Positions 730 through 38,048 are shown, counted from the stretch's first letter. The stretch is 44,508 nucleotides of DNA from Candidatus Rokuibacteriota bacterium (GCA_016179925.1 JACPCG010000014.1:1-44508); one strand, 5' to 3'. The notes: a model not told the origin generated them from the letters alone. Program-made: numbers and translations.

Positions 730-1083
730 GTGTCGGGCTACCTGCCCGTGCTGATATTCGCTGCGTTCATCGTCGGGTTCGGAGTCGTCTCGCTCGCCGT
801 CGCCCGGTTGCTCAGGCCCCACCGCCCGGACGACGTCAAGCTCGCGAACTACGAGTGCGGCGCCGAGCCGATCGGCTCGGCGTGGGTGCAGTTCCCGGTC
901 GGCTTCTATCTCGTCGCCCTCGTCTTCGTCGTCTTCGACGCGCTGGCCGTGTTCCTCTTCCCCTGGGCGCTCGTGCTGCGCGCCGCCGGCATGGGCGCGT
1001 TCTGGGTGATGGCGGGCTTCGTCGGGATCATCGGGCTCGGCTGGCTCTACGCGTATCGGGAGGGCGTGCTCGAGTGGAAGTGA
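730..1083 (+). CDS. nuoA: NADH-quinone oxidoreductase subunit A, locus 1
   Basis: 117-residue membrane subunit of complex I with three predicted transmembrane segments. The family loop YECGAEP and the FPWAL segment are present. The GTG start at 730 follows AAGGAGG. The conserved acidic pair in TM2, normally FDxE, reads FDAL here: the Asp is kept but the Glu (E. coli NuoA Glu81 equivalent) is Leu, whereas the locus 2 NuoA keeps DIE. It is the first gene of an operon lacking nuoE/F/G and overlaps nuoB1 by 10 bp. Family assignment is firm; the effect of the missing Glu is unknown. Confidence 0.93.
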
Positions 1084-1709
1084 AGCCGCCGGTCCCGCAG
1101 GTCCCGCCGCCCGTCTGGGGCGACTTCCGGGACCTCCAGGAGTGGGAGAAGTACCACCAGCACCGCGCGGTCGACGACAAGACCTCGAACACGCTCGCGT
1201 CCATCGCGGAGGCGATCCACCACATGCCGGGCGGCTGGATCGTCACGACGTCCACCGAGAAGATCTTCAACTGGGCACGGAAGTCGTCCATCTGGCCGGT
1301 GACGTTCGGGCTGGCGTGCTGCGCGATCGAGATGATGGCGACATTCGCCTCGCGCTTCGACGTCGAGCGCTTCGGCATGGTGCCGTGGGCGTCGCCGCGC
1401 CACTCGGACCTGATGATCGTCTCCGGCACGGTGACCATCAAGATGGCGCCGATGCTCAAGCGCATCTACGACCAGATGCCCGACCCGAAGTGGGTGGTCT
1501 CGATGGGCTCCTGCGCGAACTCGGGCGGCCCCTTCCGGCACGGCTACCACGTCGTCAAAGGAGTGGACCGCGTCGTGCCCGTGGACGTCTACGTGCCCGG
1601 CTGCCCGCCCACGCCCGACTCGCTCATGTATGGCCTGCTGAAGCTGCAGGAGCAGGTCGCCGAGTTCCAGAAGACCGGCGCGCGCCCCGCCTCGTCCGGT
1701 CCCAAGTGA
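1074..1709 (+). CDS. nuoB: NADH-quinone oxidoreductase subunit B, locus 1
   Basis: 211-residue peripheral subunit that binds cluster N2, the last iron-sulfur centre before quinone. The cluster ligands are visible in [18 protein letters not shown] and VPGCPPTP. The reading frame stays open upstream into nuoA1, but a GTG at 1074 sits 9 bp after GGGAGGG (1058-1064) and fits better than the GTG at 1080. The N-terminus (about 50 residues before the core) is longer than in NuoB of locus 2. It is followed 2 bp later by nuoC1. Confidence 0.93.
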
Positions 1710-1711
1710 GC

Positions 1712-2164
1712 ATGACGGCCGCCGACGCGAGCACGCGGATCCGGGAGAGGTTTGGCGTGGAGGCGGTCATGGCCGACGGCGTGCTGAGCGTCGTCTTGCC
1801 GCGCGAGCGATGGCAGGAGTTCGGCCGCGTGGCGAGGGAGGAGCTGGGCTGCGCCTACTTCAACTGGCTCTCCGCCGTCGACTGGAAGGACCAGGGGCTC
1901 GAGGTGCTCTGCCGCGTCGAGAATCTCGACGCGCGTCTGGTCGTGATGATGCGGACGCGGCTCGTGGCGGGCGAGGCGCGTTGCCCGACGCTGACGCACC
2001 TCTGGCGCGGCGCCGACTGGATGGAGCGCGAGTGCTACGACATGTTCGGCATCGTCTTCGAGGGCCATCCCGATCTCCGGCGGATCCTCCTGTCCGAGGG
2101 CTGGGAGGGCCACCCGCTGCGGAAGGACTACGCCGTCGACACCCCGTTCACCCCGTACCGATGA
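1712..2164 (+). CDS. nuoC: NADH-quinone oxidoreductase subunit C, locus 1
   Basis: 150-residue 30-kDa-type subunit that packs against NuoD near the quinone cavity. The signature [20 protein letters not shown] and the HPLRKDY tail are present. The ATG at 1712 begins 2 bp after the nuoB1 stop. It is a separate gene rather than a nuoCD fusion. The gene downstream is not nuoD but a NIPSNAP-family gene, which breaks the usual nuoC-nuoD adjacency. Confidence 0.92.
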
Positions 2165-2186
2165 CCCCTCACGAGAGGAGCCGCCA

Positions 2187-2822
2187 ATGATTTATGAGCT
2201 GCGCACCTACACGCTGATGCCGGGCAAGCAGGGCGAGTACCTCAAGCTCAACGCGGAGGTCGGCCGCCCGACGCGGGGCGACAAGTACGGCAAGCTGGAA
2301 GGCTCGTGGACGACCGAGTTCGGCACGCTGAACCAGTTCGTGCACCTCTGGAGCTACCCCGACCTGGTCGAGCGCGAGCGGCTCCGCGCCGAGCTGCAGA
2401 AGAACACCGACTGGACCCAGGGCTACATCCCGAAGATCCGCCCGATGCTCCTCGCGCAGGAGAACAAGATCCTCTCGGCCCAGCTGCCGCTCAAGCCGCC
2501 GGCGGACAGCGGCAACGTGTACGAGCTGCGCTGGTATCGCACGCACGTCGGGAAGGCGGGCGAGTGGCTCGGCCACTTCAAGGCGATCATGCCGATCCGC
2601 GAGAAGTACTCGAAGAACGTCGGCCTCTGGCAGACCGAGGTCGCCCAGCTCAACGAGGTCGTCCACCTCTGGGCGTACCGCGACCTGAACGACCGGGCGG
2701 CCGTGCGCGCCAGGGTCCTTCAAGATCCGGAGTGGCAGGCCTTCATCGGCAAGTCGTCGCCGCTCCTCGCCGAGATGCGGTCGATCGTCCTCAACCCCGC
2801 GCCGGCGTCGCCCATGAAATAG
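2187..2822 (+). CDS. NIPSNAP family protein inserted between nuoC and nuoD
   Basis: 211 residues made of two tandem ferredoxin-like (dimeric alpha/beta barrel) repeats. The first begins MIYELRTYTLMPGKQGEYL, and the second, near residue 112, begins NVYELRWYRTHVGKAGEW. Each ends in a matching Q-hL-W-Y/R-L block (NQFVHLWSYPDL, NEVVHLWAYRDL). This is the NIPSNAP pattern, and molecular function in bacteria is not established. A GAGAGGAG Shine-Dalgarno precedes the ATG, and it lies 22 bp after nuoC1 and 75 bp before nuoD1, on the same strand within the operon. No signal peptide or membrane segment is seen. A role in complex I assembly or as an accessory subunit is speculation from position only. 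Confidence 0.8.
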   Translation: MIYELRTYTLMPGKQGEYLKLNAEVGRPTRGDKYGKLEGSWTTEFGTLNQFVHLWSYPDLVERERLRAELQKNTDWTQGYIPKIRPMLLAQENKILSAQLPLKPPADSGNVYELRWYRTHVGKAGEWLGHFKAIMPIREKYSKNVGLWQTEVAQLNEVVHLWAYRDLNDRAAVRARVLQDPEWQAFIGKSSPLLAEMRSIVLNPAPASPMK

Positions 2823-2838
2823 CCGCAGGGCGAGCCGA

Positions 2839-2870
2839 GCGACTGCCGTGGGCGGGGCGCCACGAGTCGC
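2839..2870. other. Intergenic hairpin before nuoD1
   Basis: GCGACT (2839-2844) pairs with AGTCGC (2865-2870), and inside it CGTGG (2847-2851) pairs with CCACG (2860-2864). This gives an 11-bp stem with a 2-nt bulge and an 8-nt loop in the 75-bp NIPSNAP-nuoD1 gap. No T-tract follows, so it is not a classical intrinsic terminator. It could modulate translation or RNA processing. Confidence 0.4.
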
Positions 2871-2897
2871 GAGGCGAGCGAAAGACGAAAGTCCAGG

Positions 2898-4055
2898 ATG
2901 AACACGCAGACGCAGGTCGTCGAGCTGGGCTACGGCGGCAACGAGCGCCTCATGTTGAACATGGGGCCTCAGCACCCGTCGTCGCATGGCGTCTTCCGCA
3001 TGATCCTCACCCTCGCGGGCGAGACGGTCGTCGCCGTGGACGCGGTCATCGGCTACCTCCACCGTTGTCACGAGAAGCTCGGCGAGACCCTCACGTACGC
3101 GCAGTACCCGTCGATCGCCTCGAAGACGGACTACGTCGCCGCGATGACCGCCGAACTCGCCTACGTCTCCGCCGTCGAGCGGGTCGGGAAGATCGAGGTC
3201 CCCAAGCGGGCGCAGTATTTGCGCGTGATCGCGGCCGAGCTCCAGCGGATCGCGTCGCACTGCCTCTGGCTCGGCACGTGGTGCCTCGACATGGGCGGCG
3301 CGATCGGCGGCGGCTCGACCGTGTTCCTCTACTGCATGCGCGAGCGCGAGATGATCCTCGACCGCTTCGAGGAGCTGACGGGCGCGCGGCTGCTCTACGG
3401 CTTCCACCAGGTCGGCGGCACGCGCTACGACGTTCCGGCCGGCTGGGACACGAAGGTCCGCGCGACTGTCGACTTCATGGAGAAGCGCATCGACGAGTAC
3501 GAGGCGATGCTCGAGGGCAACGCGTTCTTCCTCGTGCGGACGCAGGGCGTCGGCGTCATCTCCCGGGAGCTCGCGCAGGAGGTCGGCGTCGTCGGGCCGC
3601 TGATCCGCGGCTCGGGCGTGAACTACGACGTCCGCCGGGCCGAGCCGTACTCGTCGTACCGGGACTTCGATTTCCGGGTGCCGGTCGAGACGGCGGGGGA
3701 CTGTTACGCGCGCTACCGCGTGCGGATGGTCGAGTTCCGCGAATCGATCCGGATCATCCGTCAGGCCCTCGACGGTCTGCCCGACGGGCCGATCTCGTCG
3801 CGGCCCGGCGTGAAGTCGGTGGGGCAGGTGCGCGTGCCCAAGGGCGAGGGGTACGCGCGGGTCGAGGGGCCGCGCGGCGAGGTCGGCTGTTACCTCGTCA
3901 GCGACGGCGGGCCCAAGCCCTACCGCCTCAAATGGCGGGGCGCCTCGTTCACGAACCTCGCGGTGCTGCCCCACATCATTCCCGGCCACAAGGTCGCCGA
4001 CGTCGTGGCCATCATGGGGTCGGTGGACCCGGTCTTCGGCGAGGTGGATCGGTGA
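2898..4055 (+). CDS. nuoD: NADH-quinone oxidoreductase subunit D, locus 1
   Basis: 385-residue 49-kDa-type subunit that forms the quinone pocket with NuoB. Quinone-site residues can be placed: His in GPQHPSSHG, Tyr in SKTDYVAAM, and Asp in LDMGGA. The next segment, GYLHRCHEKLGE, has a Cys-His where many homologues have Gly-Ile, and the region up to the Tyr is diverged. It lacks the roughly 50-residue insertion of the locus 2 NuoD, so the two are not recent duplicates. The stop overlaps the nuoH1 GTG as GTGA. Confidence 0.92.
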   Translation: MNTQTQVVELGYGGNERLMLNMGPQHPSSHGVFRMILTLAGETVVAVDAVIGYLHRCHEKLGETLTYAQYPSIASKTDYVAAMTAELAYVSAVERVGKIEVPKRAQYLRVIAAELQRIASHCLWLGTWCLDMGGAIGGGSTVFLYCMREREMILDRFEELTGARLLYGFHQVGGTRYDVPAGWDTKVRATVDFMEKRIDEYEAMLEGNAFFLVRTQGVGVISRELAQEVGVVGPLIRGSGVNYDVRRAEPYSSYRDFDFRVPVETAGDCYARYRVRMVEFRESIRIIRQALDGLPDGPISSRPGVKSVGQVRVPKGEGYARVEGPRGEVGCYLVSDGGPKPYRLKWRGASFTNLAVLPHIIPGHKVADVVAIMGSVDPVFGEVDR

Positions 4056-5041
4056 CCTCGTCGCCGGTGGTCTGGCAGGCGATCGAGGCGTTCGTCGTGC
4101 TGAACGCCCTCCTGGTCCTGGTGGCCTACGTGACGCTGCTCGAGCGGAAGTTCGCGGCGCGGATGCAGTCGCGGATCGGGCCGTACTACGTCGGCCGCCC
4201 CCACGGCTGGCTCCAGCCCATCGCCGACGCGCTCAAGCTCATGCTCAAGGAGGACGTCGTCCCGACCGCGTCGGACCGCGGGGTGTACAACCTCGCGCCC
4301 ATCGTCTTCCTCGTGCCCTGCCTCCTGATCTTCGCGACGATCCCGTTCGCCCCGGAGCTCGGCGTGGCCGACCTGAACATCGGCGTGCTCTTCTTCCTTG
4401 CCGTCTCCTCGCTCGAGATCGTCGGGCTCTTCATGGGCGGCTGGGGGTCGAACAACAAGTACGCGCTCCTCTCGGCGATGCGGGCGGTGAACCAGATCAT
4501 CTCGTACGGCCTCCCGTTCATCTTCGTCGCGCTCGTGCCCGTCCTCCTGGCGGGCTCGCTCCAGATGTCGGCCATCGTCGCCGCCCAGCAGGGGCTCTGG
4601 TTCGTCGCGTACCCTGGCCTGGGCCAGCTCGCGTTCGTCCTCTTCCTCGTCGCGGCGCTCGCCGCCGAGAACCGCGTGCCCTTCGACATCCTCGAGGCCG
4701 AGTCGGAGCTGGTCGCGGGCTTCCGCGTCGAGTACAGCGGGATGAAGTTCGCGCTCATCCAGCTCGGCGAGTACGCCCACATGCTGGGCACGAGCTTCCT
4801 CGGCGCGCTCCTGTTCCTCGGCGGCTGGTCGGGGCCCTGGCCCGCGTGGTTCGGGCCCATCGCATTCCTGCTGAAGGCGGTCGGCATCTTCCTGCTCGTC
4901 ACGTGGGTGCGCTGGTCCTTCGTGCGGATCCGCGTGGACCAGATCCTCGCGATCTCGTGGAAGCTCCTGCTCCCCGCATCGCTCGTCCTCCTGCTCGCGA
5001 CCGGCTTCGTGGTCGCGCTCCGAGGCGCCGGTGGCGCATAA
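4052..5041 (+). CDS. nuoH: NADH-quinone oxidoreductase subunit H, locus 1
   Basis: 329-residue membrane subunit linking the quinone site to the pump modules, with about eight hydrophobic segments. Family motifs are GRPHGWLQPIADALKLMLKE in the first cytoplasmic loop and ENRVPFDILEAESELVAGF followed by VEYSGMKFA. GTG at 4052 was chosen because it gives a GTGA overlap with the nuoD1 stop; the frame is open far upstream only as a shadow of other genes. It overlaps nuoI1 by 11 bp. Confidence 0.92.
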   Translation: MTSSPVVWQAIEAFVVLNALLVLVAYVTLLERKFAARMQSRIGPYYVGRPHGWLQPIADALKLMLKEDVVPTASDRGVYNLAPIVFLVPCLLIFATIPFAPELGVADLNIGVLFFLAVSSLEIVGLFMGGWGSNNKYALLSAMRAVNQIISYGLPFIFVALVPVLLAGSLQMSAIVAAQQGLWFVAYPGLGQLAFVLFLVAALAAENRVPFDILEAESELVAGFRVEYSGMKFALIQLGEYAHMLGTSFLGALLFLGGWSGPWPAWFGPIAFLLKAVGIFLLVTWVRWSFVRIRVDQILAISWKLLLPASLVLLLATGFVVALRGAGGA

Positions 5042-5600
5042 CGGCCGCGGGATCCCGGGCTTCTGGGGCGAGACGGGCCAGCTCGTCGGCGCCGTCGGGC
5101 GCGCGATGGGCGTCACGCTCCTGAACCTCTTCCGCCGACCGGTGACCGTCCGGTACCCGGACGTCCAGCGGACGTACCCCGACCGGTTCCGGGGCATCCT
5201 CGCGCTCACCTACGACCGGGAGACCGGCGAGGAGAACTGCATCGGCTGCCGGCTCTGCGAATACATCTGTCCGCCGCAGGTCATCAAGGTCGAGATGCTC
5301 AAGAGCGAGAAGCGGAACTACGCCAAGACGTTCACGCTCGAGCTCTATGCGTGCGAGTTCTGCGAGCTGTGCGTGCAGGTGTGCCCGACCGACGCGATCG
5401 TCATGCTCCGGACGTTCGACCTGGCCACGGCCGACCGCCGCTCGATGCTCCTCGACAAGGACCGGCTCCACGCGCTCGGCATGCAGTTCGAGCCGTCGTG
5501 GGCGACCGGGAACAAGCTGCGTGACATGCAGGCGCCGCCGAAGGCGGCGAAGGCCGCCGCCGAAGGCGCCAAGGGAGACGCGAAGGAGCGCGCCGAGTGA
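5031..5600 (+). CDS. nuoI: NADH-quinone oxidoreductase subunit I, locus 1 (two 4Fe-4S clusters)
   Basis: 189-residue ferredoxin-like subunit holding clusters N6a and N6b, feeding electrons to NuoB. Two CxxCxxCxxxCP motifs start at Cys70 (CIGCRLCEYICP) and Cys108 (CEFCELCVQVCP). The C-terminal 25 residues are Ala/Lys-rich and low-complexity. The GTG at 5031 lies inside the end of nuoH1. In a complex without NuoE/F/G this subunit is the likely docking point for an external donor such as ferredoxin, by analogy with other 11-subunit complexes; that is inference. Confidence 0.92.
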   Translation: MAHNGRGIPGFWGETGQLVGAVGRAMGVTLLNLFRRPVTVRYPDVQRTYPDRFRGILALTYDRETGEENCIGCRLCEYICPPQVIKVEMLKSEKRNYAKTFTLELYACEFCELCVQVCPTDAIVMLRTFDLATADRRSMLLDKDRLHALGMQFEPSWATGNKLRDMQAPPKAAKAAAEGAKGDAKERAE

Positions 5601-6091
5601 CGTTCGAGACCGTGGGGTTCTGGGTGGTGGCCGCAGTGCTGCTCGCCTCGAGCCTCGCCGTGGTCCTCACGAAGAACCTCTTCCACGCCGTGCTCTACCT
5701 GGCGGCGGCGCTCGTCGCGACGGGCGCCGTCTTTCTCCTGTTGGACTCGCCCTTCCTCTTCGGCGTCCAACTCCTCCTCTACGCGGGCGGCGTGGTGACG
5801 ATCGTGGTCTTCGCGATCATGCTGACGGAGCGGCTGGTCGGCGCGCGCATCGCCCAGACGAGCCGCGCGGTCTGGCACGGCGCCGTCGTCGCGGCGGCGG
5901 TGTTCGTGGGCGTGGTCGGGTTCCTGATCCGGGCGCCCTGGCCGACGGCGCGCCCCGCCCTGCCCGCGGATCTGACGCCGGCGATCGGCCAGGCGCTCGT
6001 CGGCCCGTTCGCCGCCACGCTCGAGTTGCTCGGAGTCCTGCTGGTGATCGCGCTCCTCGGCGCGCTCTACTTCGCGCGGACGGACGACTAG
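5597..6091 (+). CDS. nuoJ: NADH-quinone oxidoreductase subunit J, locus 1
   Basis: 164-residue membrane subunit with about five hydrophobic segments. The TM3 region reads LLLYAGGVVTIVVFAIML, a variant of the usual [14 protein letters not shown] seen intact in the locus 2 NuoJ. GTG at 5597 overlaps the nuoI1 stop. It is followed by a 286-bp gap with a large inverted repeat before nuoK1, unusual within this otherwise compact operon. Confidence 0.9.
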   Translation: MTFETVGFWVVAAVLLASSLAVVLTKNLFHAVLYLAAALVATGAVFLLLDSPFLFGVQLLLYAGGVVTIVVFAIMLTERLVGARIAQTSRAVWHGAVVAAAVFVGVVGFLIRAPWPTARPALPADLTPAIGQALVGPFAATLELLGVLLVIALLGALYFARTDD

Positions 6092-6158
6092 TGCGGCTCC
6101 ACGTGATCTCGCCGAGCGTCGTGCGCCCGCGCGTCCCGCCGCGGCGGATCGGGCCGCA

Positions 6159-6308
6159 GGGCGCAGGGGGCGGGCTCCGGGGCGCGGGCTCTCCGAGACC
6201 CGGAGCCTCCGGGCGGCGCCTCGGCTCCGACCGGACGGCCTGAGCGCGCGCAGTGAGTGCTAGCGTGGCCGAGGAGAGCCCGCGCCCCGGAGCCCGCCCC
6301 GTGCGCCC
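6159..6308. repeat. Large inverted repeat (36-bp arms) between nuoJ1 and nuoK1
   Basis: Arms at 6159-6194 and 6273-6308 are complementary over 36 bp with one mismatch, enclosing a 78-nt GC-rich loop. Weaker complementarity, centred on a CCGCGGCGG block, continues outward to about 6135 and 6332. It fills most of the 286-bp nuoJ1-nuoK1 gap (6092-6377). No protein is recognisable there, although frames are open. The fold could be a palindromic mobile repeat, an RNA-processing site or an attenuator; no T-tract follows. Confidence 0.75.
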
Positions 6309-6377
6309 GACGCTTCCTGTCCGCCGCGGCAGGACCCGCAGCCTCGACGCTCACCGAGACACGGTGGAACGGCATTC

Positions 6378-6656
6378 GTGGGCCTGAACGCGTACCTCAC
6401 CCTCGCGGCCCTGGTCTTCGCGATCGGCCTCTTCGGCGTCCTCACCCGACGGAACGCGATCGGCATCCTGCTCGGGATCGAGCTCATGCTCAACGCCGTC
6501 ACCATCAACTTGGTCGCGTTCGCGCGCTTCCACGGCGATCTCGCGGGGCTCGTCTTCGCGCTGTTCATCATCGCGATCACCGTCGCCGAGGTGGCCGTGG
6601 GGCTCGCGATCGTCATCGTGATCTTCCGCGTGCGCCGGACCGTCGAGGCGGAGTCC
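6378..6656 (+). CDS. nuoK: NADH-quinone oxidoreductase subunit K, locus 1 (3' end disrupted)
   Basis: The GTG at 6378 opens a NuoK with three TM segments. Both proton-path glutamates are present: Glu35 in GILLGIELMLNA and Glu71 in ITVAEVAVGL. The recognisable protein ends near residue 93 (FRVRRTVEAES), where a stop is expected, but the frame runs on through unrelated residues to 7088 inside nuoL1. The downstream nuoL1 correspondingly lacks a start, so a short stretch carrying the nuoK stop and nuoL start seems to be missing around 6645-6660. End coordinate is where homology ends, not a stop codon. Confidence 0.8.
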
Positions 6657-8452
6657 TGGCGCTGCCCTTCGCAGCGTTCGTCCTGCTGGCCGTCGTGGCG
6701 CCGCTCCGCCGCGCGGGCCACCTCGCGGGGGGCGTGTCGATCGCGGCGATCGGGGCGGCGCTCGCCGGGGCGCTCGTCGTCTGGGCCGAGGGGGCCCGGA
6801 GCGACGCGACGTGGACGTGGATCCCGGCCGACGACGGCCCCATGGCCACCGTGGGCCTCCTCGTGGACCCGCTCGCGAATGCGATGCTCGTCCTCGTCAC
6901 GCTGGTCTCGCTGCTTGTGCAGGTCTACTCGCTCGGATACCTCCACGATGAGCGCGCGCCCGCGCTCGGCCGCTACTACACGTACCAGTCGCTCTTCGCC
7001 TTCTCGATGCTCGGGCTGGTGCTCTCGCCCTCGTTCGTCCAGATGTTCGTCTTCTGGGAGCTCGTGGGGCTCTGCTCGTACCTCCTGATCGGCTACTGGT
7101 ACGCGCGCCCGTCGGCGGCGCGCGCCGCGGTGAAGGCGTTCTGGGTCACGAAGGTCGGCGACCTCGGGTTCGTCATCGGGATCGTCATGCTGTGGGCGGC
7201 GACGGGCACGTTCGAGTTCGAAGCGCTCTTCGCGAAGGCGCAGGAGCACGCGCTGGCGATCGACGGGCTCGGGACCATCATGTTCCTGATCTATCTGGGC
7301 GCGGTCGGCAAGTCGGCGCAGTTCCCGCTGCACGTGTGGCTGCCGGACGCCATGGAGGGCCCGACGCCCGTGTCCGCGCTCATCCACGCGGCGACGATGG
7401 TCACCGCGGGCGTCTTTCTGGTGACCCGCGCGCAGCCGCTCTTCGCCCTCGTCCCCGACGTGTTGACGCTCATCGGCTGGGTCGGCGCGTTCACGGCGCT
7501 GCTCGCCGCGAGCATGGCGTGCGTGGAGGGCGACATCAAGCGCGTGCTCGCCTACTCGACCGTCTCGCAGCTCGGCTACATGATGGCGGCCGCGGGCGCC
7601 GGTGCGCCCGACGCGAGCTTCCTGCACCTCCTGACGCACGGGCTGTTCAAGGCGCTCCTGTTCCTCGGCGCGGGCGCCGTCATCCACGCCGTCGGGACCA
7701 ACGACATCTTCAGAATGGGCGGGCTGTTCCGGACGATGCCCCAGACGTGCGTCGTCTTCGTCGTCGGCACGGGGGCACTCGCCGGGCTGCCGCCGCTCGC
7801 CGGCTTCTTCTCGAAGGAGGCGATCCTGGCCGGCGTGTGGGAGGCCGGGATGACGGGGCCATTCCTCATGCTGGCGCTCACCGTGCTGCTGACCGCCTTC
7901 TATATGGCCCGCGTCGTCTTCCTCGCGTTCTTCGGCCGCGCGCTCGCCTCGGGCCACCCGCACGAGCCGCCCTGGACCATGCGCGGCCCGCTCTGGCTCC
8001 TCGCGGCCCTCACCGTGGTCGCCGGCCTGCGGCTCGCCCTCGCCGAGAGCGGCGAGCCCCACGGGCCGGGGTGGCTCGCGCCGGCCTCGGTGGCGCTCGC
8101 GGCGGCCGGCATCGCGCTCGCGTGGGCGATGTACCAGCGGGGCACCGTGGACCCGGCGCGCCTCGACGGGACGTTCCCGTTCTCGGCGTTCGGCTTCATG
8201 GCGCGGCGCCGCTACGGGCTCGACGCCCTCTACGGCGGCCTCTATCGCGGCTTCATCCTGGGCTTCTCGCGCCTCATCGGCTGGATCGACCGCTACCTGG
8301 TGGACGGCGTCCTGAACTTCCTGAGCGCGTCGACCCTTCGCGGCGGCGATCTCCTGCGGCGCATCCAGAGCGGCCAGCCCCAGGACTACGTCTACGGCGT
8401 CGCCTTCGGCGTGCTCCTGCTCCTGATCTGGGCGCAGTGGTGGGGTTCATGA
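6656..8452 (+). CDS. nuoL: NADH-quinone oxidoreductase subunit L, locus 1 (5' end disrupted)
   Basis: About 598 residues of the largest antiporter-like pump subunit. Key residues are present: Glu in FVFWELVGLCSYLLIGYWY, Lys in VGKSAQFPLHVWLPDAMEGP and the HxxTH-type LLTHGLFKALLF segment. The normal start is absent: homology begins at ALPFAAFVLLAVV right where nuoK1 homology ends. The only in-frame candidates are a CTG at 6656 and a GTG at 6734 that would remove TM1. A few N-terminal residues appear lost with the junction. The 731-residue frame open from 6257 is a read-through artefact. The stop lies in the start of an R1 repeat. Confidence 0.85.
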   Translation: MALPFAAFVLLAVVAPLRRAGHLAGGVSIAAIGAALAGALVVWAEGARSDATWTWIPADDGPMATVGLLVDPLANAMLVLVTLVSLLVQVYSLGYLHDERAPALGRYYTYQSLFAFSMLGLVLSPSFVQMFVFWELVGLCSYLLIGYWYARPSAARAAVKAFWVTKVGDLGFVIGIVMLWAATGTFEFEALFAKAQEHALAIDGLGTIMFLIYLGAVGKSAQFPLHVWLPDAMEGPTPVSALIHAATMVTAGVFLVTRAQPLFALVPDVLTLIGWVGAFTALLAASMACVEGDIKRVLAYSTVSQLGYMMAAAGAGAPDASFLHLLTHGLFKALLFLGAGAVIHAVGTNDIFRMGGLFRTMPQTCVVFVVGTGALAGLPPLAGFFSKEAILAGVWEAGMTGPFLMLALTVLLTAFYMARVVFLAFFGRALASGHPHEPPWTMRGPLWLLAALTVVAGLRLALAESGEPHGPGWLAPASVALAAAGIALAWAMYQRGTVDPARLDGTFPFSAFGFMARRRYGLDALYGGLYRGFILGFSRLIGWIDRYLVDGVLNFLSASTLRGGDLLRRIQSGQPQDYVYGVAFGVLLLLIWAQWWGS

Positions 8453-8537
8453 AGAGTGCGCTGGAGGGACGGAGCCACGCCGCGCCTGTCTCAGGCCACC
8501 CTCGGACACACGCGGCCCCGGGGTCCCCGCTACAATG
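8449..8537. repeat. R1 intergenic repeat, copy 1 (nuoL1-nuoM1)
   Basis: Nearly identical to the copy at 12905-12992 over about 88 bp. It opens with ATGAAG overlapping the nuoL1 stop, carries GAGGGACGGAGCC, then the perfect mini-hairpin GCCTGTCTCAGGC, CACCCTCGG and a GC-rich tail ending in CCGCTACAAT. It spans the whole gap to nuoM1, whose ATG lies at its last bases. The tail contains TACAAT (8531-8536), a -10-like hexamer too close to the ATG for a normal leader. Confidence 0.85.
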
Positions 8538-10061: not shown

Positions 10062-10065
10062 GCCG

Positions 10066-27591: not shown

Positions 27592-27676
<85 letters not shown>

Positions 27677-29486: not shown

Positions 29487-29839
29487 CCTACGCGCCGATC
29501 CTCATGACGTTCGCCTTTGCCGCCGCCGTCGCGGGGGCCCTGATCCTCCTGCCGAAGCTGCTCGCGCCGCGGCGCCTCACGCCGATCAAGGCGGAGCCGT
29601 TCGAGTGCGGCAAGGACCCGATCGCGATCTCGGAGGGGCGCTTCGCGATCAAGTTCTCCACGATCGCGATCTTCTTCATCATCATCGACATCGAGCTCCT
29701 CTTCATCTGGCCGTGGGCGCTCCTCTACCGCCAGCTCGGCTGGTTCGGGTTCCTCGAGATGATGGTGTTCCTCGGGATCCTGATGCTCGGGTTCCTCTAC
29801 AATGGGAGTAGGCAGCTTCTTCACGTCCAAGCTCGATGA
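29483..29839 (+). CDS. nuoA: NADH-quinone oxidoreductase subunit A, locus 2
   Basis: 118-residue membrane subunit with three TM segments. It keeps FECGKDPI and the acidic pair in IIIDIELLFIWPWALLYR that NuoA of locus 1 has partly lost. GTG at 29483 is coupled to the lipA stop. It overlaps nuoB2 by 38 bp, an unusually long overlap. First gene of the second complex I locus. Confidence 0.93.
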   Translation: MTYAPILMTFAFAAAVAGALILLPKLLAPRRLTPIKAEPFECGKDPIAISEGRFAIKFSTIAIFFIIIDIELLFIWPWALLYRQLGWFGFLEMMVFLGILMLGFLYNGSRQLLHVQAR

Positions 29840-30260: not shown

Positions 30261-30279
30261 GAGAGGTGCTGAATAAGGT

Positions 30280-30406
30280 GCAGGCTGCTCAAAAAGGTCC
30301 AGATGCAAGGCGGCGCCCGCTGGCCGCACGCGAGGCGTACTCCCCGTACGTTGAGCGTGCGGCCGAGGGCGCCAACGCCGCAGATGGGCCTTTTTCAGCA
30401 GCCTGC
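30280..30406. mobile_element. 127-bp palindromic MITE-like element between nuoB2 and nuoC2
   Basis: Terminal inverted repeats of 21 bp (30280-30300, containing GCAGGCTGCTCAAAAAGG; 30386-30406, containing CTTTTTCAGCAGCCTGC) match at 18 positions. The whole element is symmetrical around 30343: GCACGC pairs with GCGTGC, and GTAC-TCCCC-GTAC forms the apex. It encodes no transposase and resembles a type of dispersed palindromic repeat known from several bacterial phyla. The gap 30261-30416 is mostly this element, and the nuoC2 Shine-Dalgarno-like AGGA lies just past its edge. Confidence 0.85.
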
Positions 30407-30416
30407 TAGGACCTCC

Positions 30417-30914
30417 GTGGACGGGGCGGCGATCCTCGAGCGGCTCAGGGGGCGGTTCGGCGGCGACGTCGTCGAGACGCACGACCATCGCGGGGACCAC
30501 ACGGCGGTCGTCACGCGCGGGGCGCTGCCGCGCCTGCTCGCGCACTGCCACGACGAGCGCCCGCTCGCGTTCGACGTGCTCATGGACCTCACCGCGGTGG
30601 ACTACCTCACCTACCCCGGCCGCGAGGACGGGCCGCGCTTCGAGGTCGTCTACCACCTCTACTCGCTCGCCCACAACCATCGGCTGCGCGTGAAGGTCCG
30701 GGTCGACGAGGACGACGCCGTCGTCCCGAGCGCGGTGGACCTCTGGCCGATCGCCGACTGGTTCGAGCGCGAGGTGTGGGACATGTTCGGGGTGCGCTTC
30801 AGCGGGCATCCCGATCTCCGGCGCCTGCTCCTGTACGAGGAGTTCATCGGTCATCCGCTGCGGAAGGACTACCCGATCGACCGGCGCCAGCCGCTGATCG
30901 GCCCCACGGTTTAG
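30417..30914 (+). CDS. nuoC: NADH-quinone oxidoreductase subunit C, locus 2
   Basis: 165 residues from GTG 30417 (MDGAAILERLRGRFGGDVV). The signature EREVWDMFGVRFSGHPDLRR and HPLRKDYPIDRRQP are present. The frame is open back to 30303, but those codons belong to the palindromic element. Its sequence differs clearly from NuoC1, so the two loci are old paralogues or of separate origin. Confidence 0.92.
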   Translation: MDGAAILERLRGRFGGDVVETHDHRGDHTAVVTRGALPRLLAHCHDERPLAFDVLMDLTAVDYLTYPGREDGPRFEVVYHLYSLAHNHRLRVKVRVDEDDAVVPSAVDLWPIADWFEREVWDMFGVRFSGHPDLRRLLLYEEFIGHPLRKDYPIDRRQPLIGPTV

Positions 30915-30922
30915 GGACGGTG

Positions 30923-32296
30923 ATGGCGGACACGGCGCGACGCGAGTTCATGCTCGGGGAGGGCGGCGGCACCGGCGGCGGGAGCCAGAACCTCCACGTC
31001 GGCGTGGGGCCGGCGCACCCCGCGATGCACGGGATCATCCGCATCACGACCGAGCTCGACGGCGAGATCATCGTTCGAGCGGACGTAGAAATCGGGTATC
31101 TCCATCGGGCGTTCGAAAAAGAATGCGAAGCGGGCGGATGGAATAACGCCATGCCGTACACCGACCGGCTCAATTATGTATCGCCGCTCATCAACAACTT
31201 CGGCTACTGCTCCGCCGTGGAGAAGCTCCTCGGCATCGACGTCACCGAGCGGTGCAAGTACATCCGCGTCATCATGTCCGAGATCTCGCGGATCTGCGAC
31301 CACCTGACGTGCATCGGCGCCACGGCGATGGAGCTCGGCGCCTTCACCGTGTTCCTCTACATGATCAAGGCGCGCGAGTTCCTGTGGGAGCTGGTCGAGG
31401 ACGTGACGGGCGCCCGGCTCACGATCTCGTACGGCCGGGTGGGCGGCGTCAAGGCCGACCTGCCCGACGGGTTCGCCGAAAAGACGCTCCGCGCGCTCAA
31501 GGAGACGCGCGAGGTGCTCGACGAGGTGCACCGGCTGCTCACCGGCAACCGGATCTTCACGGACCGCATGGTGGGTGTGGGCGCGCTCAGCCGCGAGGAG
31601 ACGATCGCCTACGCGATCACCGGCCCGATGCTGCGCGCGGCGGGCGTGTCCTACGACGTGCGCCGGGCGCAGCCGTACTACGTGTACGATCGGCTCGAGT
31701 TCGAGATCCCGACGCAGAAGGACGGCGACAACTACGCGCGCTACCTCGTGCGCATGGCGGAGATGGAGCAGTCCATGCGCATCGTCGAGCAGGCGCTCGC
31801 GTCGATCCCGGGCGGGCCGGTCAACGTGGACTTCGAGGGGCGCCCGATCGATCCCGCCGCGTACGTGGACCGGGGCAAGCAGGGGAAGACCGACGGCCTC
31901 CTGCTCGTGCCGTTGACGCTCTCGCCCAACCTCCAGGGCCAGCAGCGCGCGGCCTCCGCGCGCATCAATGCGGACGACAAGCGGGTGGTCCTGCCGCCGA
32001 AGGAGAACACGTACGGCTCGATCGAAGGCCTGATGAACCACTTCATGCTGATCATGGAGGGCTACGGGATCCGGCCGCCCCGGGGCGAGGCGTACTTCCC
32101 GGTCGAGGGCGCGAACGGCGAGCTCGGCTTCTACGTCGTGTCGGACGGCGGTGACCGCCCGTACCGCGTGCGCTGCCGGCCGCCGTGCCTGCCGCCGATG
32201 GCGGCGCTCCACCGGATGATCGAAGGCGAGATGGTCGCGGACCTCGTCCCGACGTTCGGCTCGGTGAACATGATCGGCGGGGAGCTCGACCGGTGA
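30923..32296 (+). CDS. nuoD: NADH-quinone oxidoreductase subunit D, locus 2 (with insertion)
   Basis: 457 residues, about 70 longer than NuoD1. Quinone-site His (GPAHPAMHG) and Tyr (TDRLNYVS) are kept; the usual Asp of DLGA is Glu (MELGAFT). About 50 extra residues lie around positions 290-345 (VDFEGRPIDPAAYVDRGKQG, LLLVPLTLSPNLQGQQRA) before the conserved EGLMNHF segment. ATG at 30923 follows an AGGGACGG stretch. GTGA overlap with nuoE. Confidence 0.93.
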   Translation: MADTARREFMLGEGGGTGGGSQNLHVGVGPAHPAMHGIIRITTELDGEIIVRADVEIGYLHRAFEKECEAGGWNNAMPYTDRLNYVSPLINNFGYCSAVEKLLGIDVTERCKYIRVIMSEISRICDHLTCIGATAMELGAFTVFLYMIKAREFLWELVEDVTGARLTISYGRVGGVKADLPDGFAEKTLRALKETREVLDEVHRLLTGNRIFTDRMVGVGALSREETIAYAITGPMLRAAGVSYDVRRAQPYYVYDRLEFEIPTQKDGDNYARYLVRMAEMEQSMRIVEQALASIPGGPVNVDFEGRPIDPAAYVDRGKQGKTDGLLLVPLTLSPNLQGQQRAASARINADDKRVVLPPKENTYGSIEGLMNHFMLIMEGYGIRPPRGEAYFPVEGANGELGFYVVSDGGDRPYRVRCRPPCLPPMAALHRMIEGEMVADLVPTFGSVNMIGGELDR

Positions 32297-32841
32297 GCGT
32301 CGGGAATGACGCTCCGGGCGCCTGGAACAGGCCACCCTCGGGGCGCGCCGGCCTCGCGGACCCCGCTCCACGGGTCGCCTTCACCGCCGAGCAGCTCGCG
32401 GAGGCGCGCCGCCTGCAGTCGCTCTACCCGGACCCCCGCGGCGCCCTCCTCCCGGTGCTCCAGATGGCGCAGGACGCGTTCGGCTACATCTCGCTCCCGG
32501 TCGAGGAGTACGTTGCCGGTCTGTTCAACCTGTCGCCGGCCCACGTCCACGAGGTCGTGACGTTCTACACGCTCTTCTTCCGCGAGCCGAAGGGCCGCCA
32601 CGTCGTCGCGGTCTGCCACAACCTCTCCTGCCACCTCGCCGGCGCGCCCGAGATCGTCGCGCGTCTCAAGGCGCGCCTCGGCATCGAGGTCGGCGAGACG
32701 ACGGAGGACGGGAAGGTCACCCTCCAGTCGGTGGAGTGTCTCTGCGCCTGCGAGCACGCGCCGATGATGCAGGTGGACGACCGCTACGAGCTCGGGCTGA
32801 CGCCGGAGAAGGTGGACCGGATCCTCGAGGGTCTCCGATGA
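32293..32841 (+). CDS. nuoE: NADH-quinone oxidoreductase subunit E (2Fe-2S)
   Basis: 182 residues. Thioredoxin-like subunit holding cluster N1a, with ligands in CHNLSC and CLCAC (VECLCACEHAPMMQVDD). The core begins at VAFTAEQLAEARRL; the roughly 28 residues before it are Gly/Pro/Ala-rich and come largely from an R1 repeat (32305-32371). GTG at 32293 overlaps the nuoD2 stop, and no standard start lies between repeat and core. It is the only nuoE in the window. Confidence 0.93.
   Translation: MSVGNDAPGAWNRPPSGRAGLADPAPRVAFTAEQLAEARRLQSLYPDPRGALLPVLQMAQDAFGYISLPVEEYVAGLFNLSPAHVHEVVTFYTLFFREPKGRHVVAVCHNLSCHLAGAPEIVARLKARLGIEVGETTEDGKVTLQSVECLCACEHAPMMQVDDRYELGLTPEKVDRILEGLR
32305..32371. repeat. 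R1 repeat, copy 5, inside the 5' end of nuoE
   Basis: The block from GCGCCTGGAACAGGCCACCC to CCCGCTCCACG aligns with R1 copies 1 and 3, but the GAGGGACGGAGCC part is missing. The hairpin stem CCTG/CAGG is kept while its loop changed from TCT to GAA. It is read through in frame as part of NuoE, starting about 10 bp after the nuoD2 stop. Confidence 0.65.
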
Positions 32842-34064
32842 CCGCCGAGAAGCTCCTGACGCGGAACTTCGGCCGCGCCGACTCGCACACGCTGCGCGCG
32901 TACCTCGAGAGCGGCGGCTACACCGCCTGGCAGAAGGCGCAAGCGCTGGAGCCCGCGGCCATCACCGAGGAAGTGAAGCAGTCGAACCTCCGCGGCCTCG
33001 GCGGCGCGGGCTTCCCGACGGGCACGAAGTGGTCGTTCATCCCCAAGCACCATACGGGGCCCGTCTATCTCGTCATCAACGCCGACGAGGGCGAGCCCGG
33101 GACCTTCAAGGACCGCTACCTGCTCGAGCGCGAGCCCCACGCCCTCATCGAGGGCATGCTCATCGCCGCCCGCGCGATCCGTGCGGCCAAGGGGTTCGTC
33201 TACATCCGCGGCGAGTACGTCGAGCCGTGGCGGCGGTTCAGCGCCGCCGTGAAGGAAGCGTACGACGCCGGTTATCTGGGCCGGGGCCTCGACGTCGTGG
33301 TGCATCGCGGAGCCGGCGCCTATATCTGCGGCGAAGAGACGGGGCTGATCTCGTCGCTGGAAGGAAAGAAGGGCTGGCCGAAGGTCAAGCCGCCGTTTCC
33401 GGCGATCAAGGGCGCGTTCGGCATGCCGACGATCGTGAACAACGTGGAGACGATCTGCCACGTGCCGCACATCATCAACCGCGGCGCCGCGTGGTTCGCC
33501 TCGCTCGGCACGAAGACCCAGGGCGGCACGCGCATCTTCTCCGTGTCCGGCCGCGTGCGCAAGCCCGGCATCTACGAAGCGTCGGTGGCGATCACGCTGC
33601 GCGCGCTGATCTACGAGCTGGCCGGCGGCGTCGCGGGCAACGGGCGCCTCAAGGCGGTCGTCCCCGGCGGCTCCTCGGCGGCGATCCTGCGCGCCGACGA
33701 GATCGACGTGACCGCGGACGTGGACGGGCTCAGGAACGCGGGGACGATGGCGGGCTCGGCGGGCGTCATCGTGATGGACGAGACCGTGTCCATCCCCGAG
33801 GCGCTCATGGTCGTGGCGCGCTTCTACGCCCACGAGAGCTGCGGCCAGTGCACGCCGTGCCGCGAGTCCACCGGGTGGATCTACCAGATGACGAAGCGGA
33901 TCGTCGAGGGGCGCGGCCGGAAGGACGACCTCGACACGATCCTGGACGTGGCCCGACGCGGCGCCGGCACCACGATCTGCGCCTTCTACGACGGCGCCGT
34001 GGGGCCGTACATCTCCTACATCGAGAAGTTTCGCGCCGAGTTCGAGGCGCTGATCCCGAACTAA
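32838..34064 (+). CDS. nuoF: NADH-quinone oxidoreductase subunit F (NADH/FMN binding)
   Basis: 408 residues. This is the NADH entry point: FMN/NADH-binding GLGGAGFPTGTKWSF and NADEGEPGTFKDR, Tyr/Gly-rich AYICGEETGLISSLEGKKG, and the 4Fe-4S motif ESCGQCTPCRE with a distal Cys in TTICAFYDGAVGP. ATG at 32838 overlaps the nuoE stop (ATGA). Unique in this window; locus 1 has no counterpart. Confidence 0.95.
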   Translation: MTAEKLLTRNFGRADSHTLRAYLESGGYTAWQKAQALEPAAITEEVKQSNLRGLGGAGFPTGTKWSFIPKHHTGPVYLVINADEGEPGTFKDRYLLEREPHALIEGMLIAARAIRAAKGFVYIRGEYVEPWRRFSAAVKEAYDAGYLGRGLDVVVHRGAGAYICGEETGLISSLEGKKGWPKVKPPFPAIKGAFGMPTIVNNVETICHVPHIINRGAAWFASLGTKTQGGTRIFSVSGRVRKPGIYEASVAITLRALIYELAGGVAGNGRLKAVVPGGSSAAILRADEIDVTADVDGLRNAGTMAGSAGVIVMDETVSIPEALMVVARFYAHESCGQCTPCRESTGWIYQMTKRIVEGRGRKDDLDTILDVARRGAGTTICAFYDGAVGPYISYIEKFRAEFEALIPN

Positions 34065-34068
34065 CCCC

Positions 34069-35655
34069 ATGCCCAGGCTCACGATCAACGGCGGGGAGGT
34101 CGAGGTTCCGCCCGGGACGAACCTCATCGAGGCGGCGCGGAAGGTCGGCGTCGAGATCCCGCACTACTGCTATCACCCGGGACTGTCCGTCGCCGGGCAG
34201 TGCCGCCTCTGCATGGTGGACATCGAGAAGACGCCGCGCCCGACGATCGCGTGCAACACGCAGGCGGCCGAGGGCATGGTCGTCTGGACGGAGACCGACC
34301 GCGTCAAGGAGACCCGCCGCTCCGTCATGGAGTTCCACCTGATCAATCACCCGCTCGACTGCCCGGTGTGCGACCAGGCGGGCGAGTGCTGGCTGCAGAT
34401 CTACTACATGAAGCACGGCCTCTACGAGCCGCGGATGATGGACGAGAAGGTCCACAAGCCCAAGGCCGTGCCGCTGGGGCCCCACGTCATCCTCGACGCC
34501 GAGCGGTGCATCCTCTGCTCGCGCTGCGTCCGCTTCTGCGACGAGATCACGGGCACGGGCGAGCTCGGCATCTTCCACCGCGGCGACCACTCCGAGATCG
34601 GGCTCTTCCCGGGGCGGGAGCTCGCCAACAAGTACTCGGGCAACGTGGTGGACATCTGCCCCGTGGGCGCGCTCACCGACCGTGACTTCCGCTTCCAGGT
34701 CCGCGTCTGGTACCTGGACGCCACGAAGTCCGTCTGCCCCGGCTGCGCGCGCGGCTGCAACATCGACGTCCACGTGAACCGCCGGCGCCCGCACCACGCC
34801 GAGGGGCGCCGGGTGGCCCGGCTCAAGCCGCGCGTCAACGCGGACGTCAACACGTGGTGGATCTGCGACGCCGGGCGCTACGGGTTCACGTTCGTGGACG
34901 ACAAGACGCGGCTCGTGACGCCGTCCCGCCGCGACGGCGAGGCGGTGACGGACGTCGCGTGGGACCAAGCAGTCTCAGCCGTCGCCGCAGCGCTCGAGCG
35001 CGCGGCGCCCGGGGAGGTCGCCGTCGTCGCGTCGGCGAAGATGGCGAACGAGGATCTGTGGGCGCTGCGCCGCCTGCTCGTGCACCGGGGGATCCGCCGG
35101 GTCGGGTTCCGCATCCCGCCGCGCGTCCCGGGCGACGAAGACGCCTTCCTGATCAAGGCCGACAAGAACCCGAATTCACTCGGCGCCGAGCTGATCGGGC
35201 TCGAGGGTAACGTGCGGGACCTCCTCGCCGCCGCCCGCGCGCGGCAGGTGAAGGTGCTCTGGATCTTCGGCCACGATCTCTTCGAGAGCGCCCTGCCCGA
35301 GGCGGACGTCGCCGCAGCGCTCCGGGGGGCGGAGACCGTGATCTTCACCGGCACGAGCGCGAACGCCACGAGCGAGCGCGCCCGCTGGGTGCTGCCGGCC
35401 GCGGCGTGGGTGGAGCGGGAGGGGACGTATACGAACTTCCAGGGACGCGTCCAGCGCTTCCGCCGGGCGGTCGAGCCGCTCGGCCAGGCGCTCGCGGAGT
35501 GGGACATTCTCGGCCGGGTCCTCCAGGCGCTCGGGGCCGAGGCGACGCCCCCGCGCGCGGAGCGCTGGTTCCGCGAGCTTGCGGCCGCCGTCCCCGCCTT
35601 CGCCGGCCTGACCTACCAGGCGATCGGTGACGCCGGTGTCATGGTGACGCGATGA
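34069..35655 (+). CDS. nuoG: NADH-quinone oxidoreductase subunit G (short form)
   Basis: 528 residues, far shorter than the roughly 900 of E. coli NuoG. The 2Fe-2S domain (PHYCYHPGLSVAGQCRLCMV), the His-ligated cluster region (CPVCDQAGECWLQ), CILCSRCVRFCDEI and the N5 cluster CPGCARGCNIDVHVN are present. The molybdopterin-like domain is shortened and has no cofactor role in this family. It ends in an ATGA overlap with nuoH2. Electron transfer from NuoF to NuoI is its expected role. Confidence 0.93.
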   Translation: MPRLTINGGEVEVPPGTNLIEAARKVGVEIPHYCYHPGLSVAGQCRLCMVDIEKTPRPTIACNTQAAEGMVVWTETDRVKETRRSVMEFHLINHPLDCPVCDQAGECWLQIYYMKHGLYEPRMMDEKVHKPKAVPLGPHVILDAERCILCSRCVRFCDEITGTGELGIFHRGDHSEIGLFPGRELANKYSGNVVDICPVGALTDRDFRFQVRVWYLDATKSVCPGCARGCNIDVHVNRRRPHHAEGRRVARLKPRVNADVNTWWICDAGRYGFTFVDDKTRLVTPSRRDGEAVTDVAWDQAVSAVAAALERAAPGEVAVVASAKMANEDLWALRRLLVHRGIRRVGFRIPPRVPGDEDAFLIKADKNPNSLGAELIGLEGNVRDLLAAARARQVKVLWIFGHDLFESALPEADVAAALRGAETVIFTGTSANATSERARWVLPAAAWVEREGTYTNFQGRVQRFRRAVEPLGQALAEWDILGRVLQALGAEATPPRAERWFRELAAAVPAFAGLTYQAIGDAGVMVTR

Positions 35656-36743
35656 CGGCGTTGGCGGATCTGGGGATCGCCTTCGGCCGCGTCGCCTTCG
35701 TGATGCTGTTCGTCCTCAACCTGGGCGGGCTCCTGGGGTGGGTCGAGCGCAAGCAGTCGGCGATCATGCAGGACCGGATCGGCGCGAACCGCGCGTCGAT
35801 CCTGGGCTTCCGCGTGTTGGGCCTCTTCCACCCCATCGCCGACGCGATCAAGTTGCTGACGAAGGAGGACTTCCGGCCCGCGCGCGCCGATCGGTTTCTG
35901 TTCGGGCTGGCGCCGTTCGTCTCGGTGTTCTTCGGACTCGTGGCGTTTGCCTCGATCCCCTTCGGCGACACCCTCCGCGTCGCCGGCCGCGAGATCCCGC
36001 TCCAGGCGGTGACGCTCAACGTGGGCGTGCTCTACGTCTTCGCGATGCTCTCGCTCGGCGTCTACGGCGTCATGATGGCCGGCTGGTCGTCAGCCAACAA
36101 CTACGCGTTGCTCGGCGGCCAGCGCGCGGCGGCCCTGATGATCTCGGCCGAGATCGCGATCGGCGCCTCGATCATTGGCGTGGTCATGATCTACGGCTCG
36201 CTGGACCTCCAGGAGATCGTGCGTGCGCAGGGGGAGCTTCTGTGGGGGTGGCTCCCGGCGTGGGGCATCGTGACCCAGCTCCCGGCCTTCGTGATCTTCC
36301 TCACCGCGGGCATCGCAGCGACGAAGCGGGTCCCCTTCGACACGCCGGAAGGCGAGTCCGAGATCATCGGCTACTTCGTCGAGTACAGCGGGATGAAGGC
36401 CGGCATGTTCATGATGGCCGACTTCCTCGAGACGGTGGTCATCGCGGGGCTGACGACGTCGCTGTTCCTGGGCGGCTGGCAGGTCCCGTACCTTACCGCC
36501 GAGGGCTTCCGATTCCCGTGGGGCTGGGCGTGGGCGTTGCCGCACCTCGCCGTCGCCCTCCTGCAGGTGGGGGCCTTCGTCGTCAAGGTCTGCGCGATGA
36601 TCTTCTTCATGATGCTCGTCCGCTGGACGCTCCCGCGCTTCCGCTACGACCAGGCCATGCGGCTCGGGTGGCTCGGCCTCTTCCCGCTGTCCATCCTCAA
36701 CATCGTTGTGACGGGGCTGGTCCTGCTCCTCTGGAAACCATGA
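35652..36743 (+). CDS. nuoH: NADH-quinone oxidoreductase subunit H, locus 2
   Basis: 363 residues, with a clearly different sequence from NuoH1. Motifs: ERKQSAIMQDRIGANRA, LFHPIADAIKLLTKEDFRP and KRVPFDTPEGESEIIGYF followed by VEYSGMKAGMF. About eight TM segments. ATGA junctions at both ends indicate tight coupling with nuoG and nuoI2. Confidence 0.94.
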   Translation: MTALADLGIAFGRVAFVMLFVLNLGGLLGWVERKQSAIMQDRIGANRASILGFRVLGLFHPIADAIKLLTKEDFRPARADRFLFGLAPFVSVFFGLVAFASIPFGDTLRVAGREIPLQAVTLNVGVLYVFAMLSLGVYGVMMAGWSSANNYALLGGQRAAALMISAEIAIGASIIGVVMIYGSLDLQEIVRAQGELLWGWLPAWGIVTQLPAFVIFLTAGIAATKRVPFDTPEGESEIIGYFVEYSGMKAGMFMMADFLETVVIAGLTTSLFLGGWQVPYLTAEGFRFPWGWAWALPHLAVALLQVGAFVVKVCAMIFFMMLVRWTLPRFRYDQAMRLGWLGLFPLSILNIVVTGLVLLLWKP

Positions 36744-37279
36744 CGATGCTCCAGCGTGTCTACCTCGTCGAGGTGCTGTCGGGGGTCGCCCTGACGGCGG
36801 CGCACTTCTTCCGCAACATGGGCGCGCACACCGCACGCGCGCTCGGCCGGAAGGACGCGCGCGGCGCCGTGACCATCCAGTACCCGGAGGAGCGCCGCCC
36901 CTACTCGCCGCGGCTGCGAAGCCTCCATCGACTGGTGAGACGCGAGGACGGCTCGCCGCGCTGCGTGGCGTGCATGATGTGCGAGACGGTGTGCCCGGCG
37001 CACTGCATCTACATCGTCGCCGACGAGCACCCGAACCCGGAGATCGAGAAGGTCCCGCGGCGCTTCGACATCGACCTCGGCAAGTGCGTGTTCTGCGGCT
37101 ACTGCGTCGAGGCCTGCCCGGAGGACGCGATCCGGATGGACACCGGCATCCTCGAGTTTTCCTCGTACAGCCGCACCGGGATGATCTACACGAAGGAGAT
37201 GCTGCTCTCGCTCGAGCCCGCCGGGCCCGACGGCCGCCCGGCCTCCCCGGTCCCGATCCCGGCCGACCGGAGGCCGTAG
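36740..37279 (+). CDS. nuoI: NADH-quinone oxidoreductase subunit I, locus 2 (two 4Fe-4S clusters)
   Basis: 179 residues. Two 4Fe-4S motifs, [12 protein letters not shown] and [12 protein letters not shown], carry clusters N6a and N6b. [11 protein letters not shown] and [13 protein letters not shown] are typical of NuoI. ATG at 36740 overlaps the nuoH2 stop; the TAGTG at its end overlaps the nuoJ2 GTG by 1 bp. Confidence 0.94.
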
Positions 37280-37773
37280 TGGCGTCCGTGGCGTTCGTCC
37301 TGATCGCGGCGCTCGCCGTCGGCTCGGCGCTCGGGCTCGTGCTCAAGCGGAACGCGATCCACGGCGCGCTCTTCCTCGTCGTGAACCTCGCGTCCGTCGC
37401 GGCGCTCTACCTCATGCTCGGCGCGGAGTTCCTCGCGGCCGCGCAGGTCATCGTGTACGCGGGCGCGATCATGGTGCTCTTCGTCTTCGCGATCATGGTC
37501 CTCATCCCGGGCAAGGAGGAGACCGGGCCGGACCCGCGGCGCCCCTGGCGGCTGGTCGCGGTGCCGGTCGGGGCGCTCCTCGGCGTCCAGCTCCTCGTCG
37601 TCGTCCGCGCGCTGCGCGGCGGCGCCCCGGCGGGCGCCCAGCCGGTGCCCGGCAGCGTGGAGGCGCTCGCGCGCCTGCTCTTCACCCAGTACCTGTTCCC
37701 CTTCGAGCTGACCTCCGTGCTGCTGCTCGCCGCGATGGTCGGCGTGCTGCTGCTGGCGCGGCGGCGGACCTGA
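37279..37773 (+). CDS. nuoJ: NADH-quinone oxidoreductase subunit J, locus 2
   Basis: 164 residues with about five TM segments. The conserved TM3 [20 protein letters not shown], whose pi-bulge helix is central to coupling in complex I, is intact, unlike its variant in locus 1. GTG at 37279. The stop is TGA at 37771-37773, directly in front of nuoK2. Confidence 0.93.
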
Positions 37774-38048
37774 CGTCGGCGGTCCTCTTCACGATCGGGG
37801 TCGTCGGCGTCGTCATCCGGCGCAACCCGCTCGTGATGTTCATGTCCATCGAGGTGATGCTGAACGCGGCGAACCTCGCCCTCGTGGCCTTCGGTCGCCG
37901 GGCCGGCAACGCCGAGGGCCAGGCGCTCGTGTTCTTCGTGATGGCCGTCGCGGCCGCGGAGGTGGCGGTGGGCCTCGCGATCATCGTCACGATCTTCCGC
38001 CTCCGCCGCCGGCTCTCGGTGGACGACCTCAGCGTGATGCGCTGGTAG
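37770..38048 (+). CDS. nuoK: NADH-quinone oxidoreductase subunit K, locus 2 (start uncertain)
   Basis: About 92 residues if begun at CTG 37770, overlapping the nuoJ2 stop as CTGA. Both membrane glutamates are present ([28 protein letters not shown]). The first standard start in frame is the GTG at 37833, which would delete TM1 ([18 protein letters not shown]), so either the rare CTG is used or the 5' end is slightly damaged. It is the last nuo gene here: pdhA follows after 12 bp and nuoL/M/N are absent. Confidence 0.85.

Follow-up and report, generated by a model that had tools for sequence, protein, structure and literature searches.

Locus 2 and the distant nuoLMN cluster

The stretch of DNA analysed here (the window) is 44,508 bp long and comes from Candidatus Rokuibacteriota. 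It is one entire contig (C162) out of the 223 that make up a 3.57-Mb genome, a metagenome-assembled bin listed as 81% complete and 1.62% contaminated, and the end of the window is the end of a contig and not of a replicon. The window carries two loci for subunits of respiratory complex I (Nuo), locus 1 (730-11493) and locus 2 (29483-38048), separated by ~18 kb. An earlier note on this DNA had described the two loci as complementary, and searches with family models confirmed this: no nuoE, nuoF or nuoG was found by these models in locus 1, and locus 2 lacks nuoL, nuoM and nuoN. The note had also considered the shared subunits to be clearly divergent, which is likewise correct, as NuoH is 43% identical between the loci and NuoD is 385 aa long in locus 1 and 457 aa in locus 2. 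The features of locus 2 and its surroundings are as follows.

within 28212-29486, upstream of locus 2: lipA (Pfam)
29483-29839, + strand: nuoA
29802-30260, + strand: nuoB, with the cysteines of cluster N2 present
30417-30914, + strand: nuoC
30923-32296, + strand: nuoD, 457 aa
32293-32841, + strand: nuoE
32838-34064, + strand: nuoF, the NADH/flavin mononucleotide (FMN) subunit, with FMN, NADH and N3 motifs present
34069-35655, + strand: nuoG, 528 aa
35652-36743, + strand: nuoH
36740-37279, + strand: nuoI, with two 4Fe-4S motifs
37279-37773, + strand: nuoJ
37770-38048, + strand: nuoK, the final nuo gene of the locus
38061-43070, + strand: pyruvate dehydrogenase (PDH) genes for E1 alpha, E1 beta, E2 and E3 (Pfam), directly downstream of nuoK

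The genes nuoA to nuoK stand in canonical order. NuoF possesses the motifs GGAGFPTG, GAGAYICGEET and ESCGxCxPCR, cysteine motifs are present in NuoE and NuoG, and iron-sulphur motifs were also found in NuoB and NuoI. Only 12 bp separate the end of nuoK (38048) from the start of pdhA (38061), and there is no nuoL, nuoM or nuoN between nuoK and the PDH genes. The adjacency of the PDH genes suggests that PDH may supply much of the NADH for the locus-2 complex. Within pdhA, a 67-bp exact tandem duplication (window 38662-38795) shifts the frame and cuts the open reading frame to 300 aa; this duplication is probably an assembly error.

We searched the genome for proteins with the antiporter domain PF00361. 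The results revealed a second nuoL-nuoM-nuoN cluster on another contig of the same genome (G000:C13, 7,487 bp; hereafter C13).

1355-3223 on C13: nuoL (E 2.2e-230)
3513-5012 on C13: nuoM (E 7.1e-194)
about 5012-6380 on C13: nuoN, in two pieces

Genes for all 14 core subunits are thus present, A to K in locus 2, L and M on C13, and N on C13 in two pieces, and the puzzle posed by locus 2 is resolved because the rest of the genome carries a separate nuoLMN. The cluster is flanked by an M23 peptidase gene and a HAD gene, and the same flanks were observed in most relatives. The GC content of C13 is 0.711, compared with 0.707 for the window, and the tetranucleotide profiles of the two agree with r = 0.987. 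The nuoM of C13 is 74-86% identical to that of members of the family, and the closest solved structure to its product is an NADH dehydrogenase subunit M (entry 8qby, 483 bits). With three PF00361 proteins in each set, neither set has the at least four antiporter-like subunits per complex that characterise a 2M or green complex I. One further PF00361 match in the genome, a partial fragment in a broken frame on contig C222, was rejected as another nuoL/M/N set.

To evaluate the conservation of this arrangement, we compared 38 genomes of the same family and order (Rokubacteriales) and fetched 20 regions around locus 2, 19 of which include nuoK, and 20 regions around LMN. A NuoH of the locus-2 type was found in 37 of the 38 relatives (76-90% identical) and a C13-type NuoM, whole or in large part, in 35 (70-86% identical); in every one of the 35 relatives having both, the two lie on different contigs. 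In addition, of the 19 loci in which nuoK is included, 18 have pdhA no more than about 230 bp behind it, while no other nuo gene is found nearby in any of the 20 LMN regions. As far as these genome sequences tell, the division into A-K and L-M-N is fixed across the order Rokubacteriales. A literature search for nuoL, nuoM or nuoN at a separate locus found no papers.

One probable complex I and the competing explanations

Locus 2 and the nuoLMN of C13 very probably constitute one ordinary 14-subunit complex I that oxidises NADH, reduces quinone and pumps protons in this soil bacterium; the gene content, the preserved split, the placement in the trees and the key redox and proton-channel residues are direct observations. 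In the proposed enzyme, subunits A to K would be supplied from the lipA-nuo-pdh cluster and L, M and N from the cluster between the M23 peptidase and HAD genes. The two groups of products would assemble together and pump protons, and NADH made by PDH would be a major substrate. Compared with the canonical 14-subunit NuoA-N complex I, the subunit families and the redox and channel motifs are the same, whereas the genes lie here at two unlinked places. In the Rokubacterial rows of the alignments, C13-type NuoM has kept a glutamate in transmembrane helix (TM) 5, lysines in TM7 and TM8 and a glutamate in TM12, and C13-type NuoL has kept a glutamate in TM5 (with one gap) and lysines in TM7 and TM12. 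The glutamate pair of NuoK and the channel glutamate and lysine residues of NuoN are kept as well.

Some observations weigh against this reading. First, near position 5855 of C13 the nuoN gene shows an ~85-bp deletion and a frameshift, and the lost segment holds the conserved stretch LKRMLAYSSIAH of a relative (L095) in which nuoN, unlike that of C13, is a single open frame; the change looks like an assembly error, which only reads would prove. Second, the contig carrying this nuoLMN is short and belongs to a metagenome-assembled genome, and its physical linkage to locus 2 is putative. Third, in approximately unbiased (AU) tests, the groups of which were partly named after the trees had been seen, so that the p-values are optimistic, a common clade of C13-type and locus-1 sequences is rejected for NuoM (p 1.4e-5) and for NuoN (p 1.1e-4), whereas the test fails to reject it for NuoL alone (p 0.26).

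The earlier note had offered three options for locus 2, namely L/M/N encoded elsewhere in the genome, L/M/N borrowed from locus 1, or a non-pumping or weakly pumping module; the first is what C13 provides, and the other two are not supported. If locus 2 borrowed the NuoL/M/N of locus 1, two peripheral arms would use one pumping arm. Both loci do lie on one contig, with their NuoH genes 31.6 kb apart in the window; in several relatives the two NuoH genes likewise share a contig, at a distance of ~30-37 kb, and locus 1 encodes a full L/M/N set. However, a dedicated and conserved second set exists, the NuoM of locus 1 is ~41% identical to that of C13 over the matched part and lacks the TM7 lysine, and the NuoM and NuoN trees reject the common clade mentioned above. 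We consider borrowing to be very unlikely. Slightly less probable still is that locus 2 encodes an NADH-quinone module without antiporter-like subunits that pumps weakly or not at all. The absence of L/M/N from locus 2 itself would fit such a module, but a separate nuoLMN, kept alongside locus 2 in 35 of the 38 relatives, makes it unnecessary. We give equally little credence to the view that C13 is a binning contaminant and that the organism truly lacks a second nuoLMN: although the contig measures only 7.5 kb and the listed contamination of the bin is not zero, its GC content and tetranucleotide composition match, its nuoM shows the identity to the family given above, and its flanks are syntenic in the family.

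The weakest proposal, that nuoLMN truly follow nuoK and were lost by misassembly at 38048-38061, could appeal to the irregularities of the contig (the tandem duplication in pdhA and what looks like a deletion where nuoK meets nuoL in locus 1), but it is not borne out, as the nuoK-pdhA junction recurs in 18 of 19 independent relatives whose nuoLMN lie elsewhere with conserved flanks. Neither misassembly nor borrowing from locus 1 accounts for the arrangement, because the split recurs in relatives with the flanks of LMN kept. The earlier note had also called such a locus odd and had stated that a second nuoLMN set clustering with the subunits of locus 2 would speak against its reading. This is what was found, as the nuoLMN of C13 groups with the same phyla as the NuoD and NuoH of locus 2. 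The observation of the note stands while the anomaly falls, and locus 2 very probably supplies most of the subunits of an ordinary complex I whose gene cluster is split.

Phylogeny and the wider division of the nuo genes

Scanning a genome collection with the NuoH of Rokubacteria revealed matches outside this group in Omnitrophota, KSB1, Calditrichota, Nitrospinota, Acidobacteriota and one Zixibacteria genome, with identities of 59-65%. The operon in these non-Rokubacterial genomes comprises A-I and ends after nuoI. Of their J-N regions, 20 were fetched; most of these consist of J-K-L-M-N alone, in some cases preceded by E or F, and a few are cut short or form part of a different operon. The NuoM of the split-operon genomes (KSB1 and others) is about 54-66% identical to that of C13. 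The split in KSB1, Calditrichota, Nitrospinota and Acidobacteriota (L182-L217 with L254-L273) is like that in Rokubacteriales in that the part for the peripheral arm plus NuoH stands apart from the part for the membrane arm. In Rokubacteriales, however, nuoJ and nuoK stay with A-I, and the break falls between K and L. The A-K and L-N arrangement of Rokubacteriales is a variant of the wider A-I and J-N split; the NuoK alignment offers too few columns for its tree to resolve the J/K boundary. A precedent for two transcription units is found in Sulfurospirillum multivorans, in which nuoGHIJKLMN and nuoABCDEF run in opposite directions and the break lies at another place than in Rokubacteriales (PMC11238625). 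In KSB1, Calditrichota, a Zixibacteria genome and one unassigned bacterium (L182, L186, L189, L191, L197, L199, L206, L215), another gene set, resembling B-C-I-D, comes after the A-I operon.

In the phylogenetic trees, the NuoH and NuoD of locus 2 shared a clade with those of the A-I genomes and of Omnitrophota, to the exclusion of the sister class and of locus 1 (NuoH support 100/100; NuoD support 100 in the Shimodaira-Hasegawa-like approximate likelihood ratio test). C13-type NuoL, NuoM and NuoN grouped with both the A-I genomes and the sister class, whereas locus 1 and the Omnitrophota rows fell elsewhere. There is a bias in that, where a genome holds two NuoM sets, the set most like C13 was taken, and its pairing with A-I was deduced from complementarity. 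The sister class (relatives of Methylomirabilis) has operons that carry NuoH and NuoM together, but its NuoH fell outside and its NuoM inside the groups containing Rokubacteriales; the NuoM of Rokubacteriales grouped with the 14-subunit operon of this class, with most Omnitrophota rows excluded. The later tests did not include three long-branch rows that came from incomplete loci (SX_L122 for NuoM, AI_L190 for NuoL and SX_L123 for NuoN). When the NuoM grouping was imposed on NuoH, the log-likelihood fell by 80.6 and 158.8 units in two versions of the test, and with the NuoH grouping imposed on NuoM it fell by 157.6 and 49.6 units; the AU test rejected both.

It is conceivable, though we advance it tentatively, that bacterial lineages have exchanged the enzyme as two units, an A-I half and a distal membrane half, which part where the operon is split. 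Alternatively, the discordance could be due to unequal rates and to the long stem branches of NuoH and NuoD (1.3-1.4 changes per column). A mosaic origin within Rokubacteriales, combining a foreign A-I part with a native LMN, was considered but is not a required assumption, since a separate J-N, with NuoM 60-66% identical to that of C13, is also found in KSB1 and the related A-I genomes. The Methylomirabilis relatives (L112-L127, L132-L143) possess two tandem nuo operons, and most of those checked lack nuoB there; in the sister class nuoB sits at another locus, in some cases with nuoI or part of nuoG.

Locus 1 and the meaning of the split

The other locus of the window has the following composition.

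730-11493, + strand: locus 1, nuoABC-(NIPSNAP)-DHIJKLMN, 11 subunits (family models; same operon in relatives L128-L131)
730-1083, + strand: nuoA
about 1074-1709, + strand: nuoB
1712-2164, + strand: nuoC
2187-2822, + strand: NIPSNAP-family protein between nuoC and nuoD, no Nuo subunit (PF07978, E 6.2e-48)
2898-4055, + strand: nuoD, 385 aa
4052-5041, + strand: nuoH
5031-5600, + strand: nuoI
5597-6091, + strand: nuoJ
from 6378, + strand: nuoK
about 6653-8452, + strand: nuoL
8535-10061, + strand: nuoM, with leucine at the position of the TM7 lysine (residue alignment)
10066-11493, + strand: nuoN

Judged from its genes, locus 1 likely encodes a separate 11-subunit complex without an NADH module, with its own L/M/N and using another donor. 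In line with the earlier note, the literature describes 11-subunit complexes lacking EFG as using other donors (PMC11238625, PMC5317091). An enzyme of this kind has been described in Desulfitobacterium (PMC11238625), and another is the second locus of Caldithrix (PMC5317091). A Bacteroidota operon (L274, OY725991) has the identical gene set and order, ABCDHIJKLMN, and the NuoM of both lacks the TM7 lysine. Locus 1 differs from the known 11-subunit systems by the NIPSNAP gene inside the operon, which occupies the nuoC-nuoD gap in 4 of the 5 Rokubacterial copies examined (present in L129-L131, not found in L128). This gene is the sole insert, and no donor gene was identified in the operon. At the border of nuoK and nuoL (~6652), the nuoK stop and nuoL start seen in relatives are missing and the nuoK frame continues to 7088, which is probably the result of a small deletion or an assembly error.

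The TM7 site of NuoM (the E. coli K234 position) is a lysine in all 17 C13-type sequences and a leucine in all 5 Rokubacterial copies of locus 1 as well as in the Bacteroidota operon, while Omnitrophota NuoM carries isoleucine or threonine there (8 of 8). According to a reviewed mechanism (PMC10212512), proton transfer involves the sites in TM7 and TM8, so the replacement of lysine by leucine may alter pumping in the locus-1 enzyme, but not in that of locus 2. This lysine, missing from the NuoM of the 11-subunit enzyme and likewise from that of the Bacteroidota operon and of Omnitrophota, is a specific position at which proton stoichiometry could be tested.

For locus 2, an apparent anomaly is removed, as an operon that seemed to lack its pump is completed at a distance; annotation restricted to the operon would call such an enzyme defective or non-pumping. 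Both conserved splits, A-K and LMN as well as A-I and J-N, coincide with structural modules of the enzyme; judging from the discordant trees, its halves may be testable as evolutionary units.

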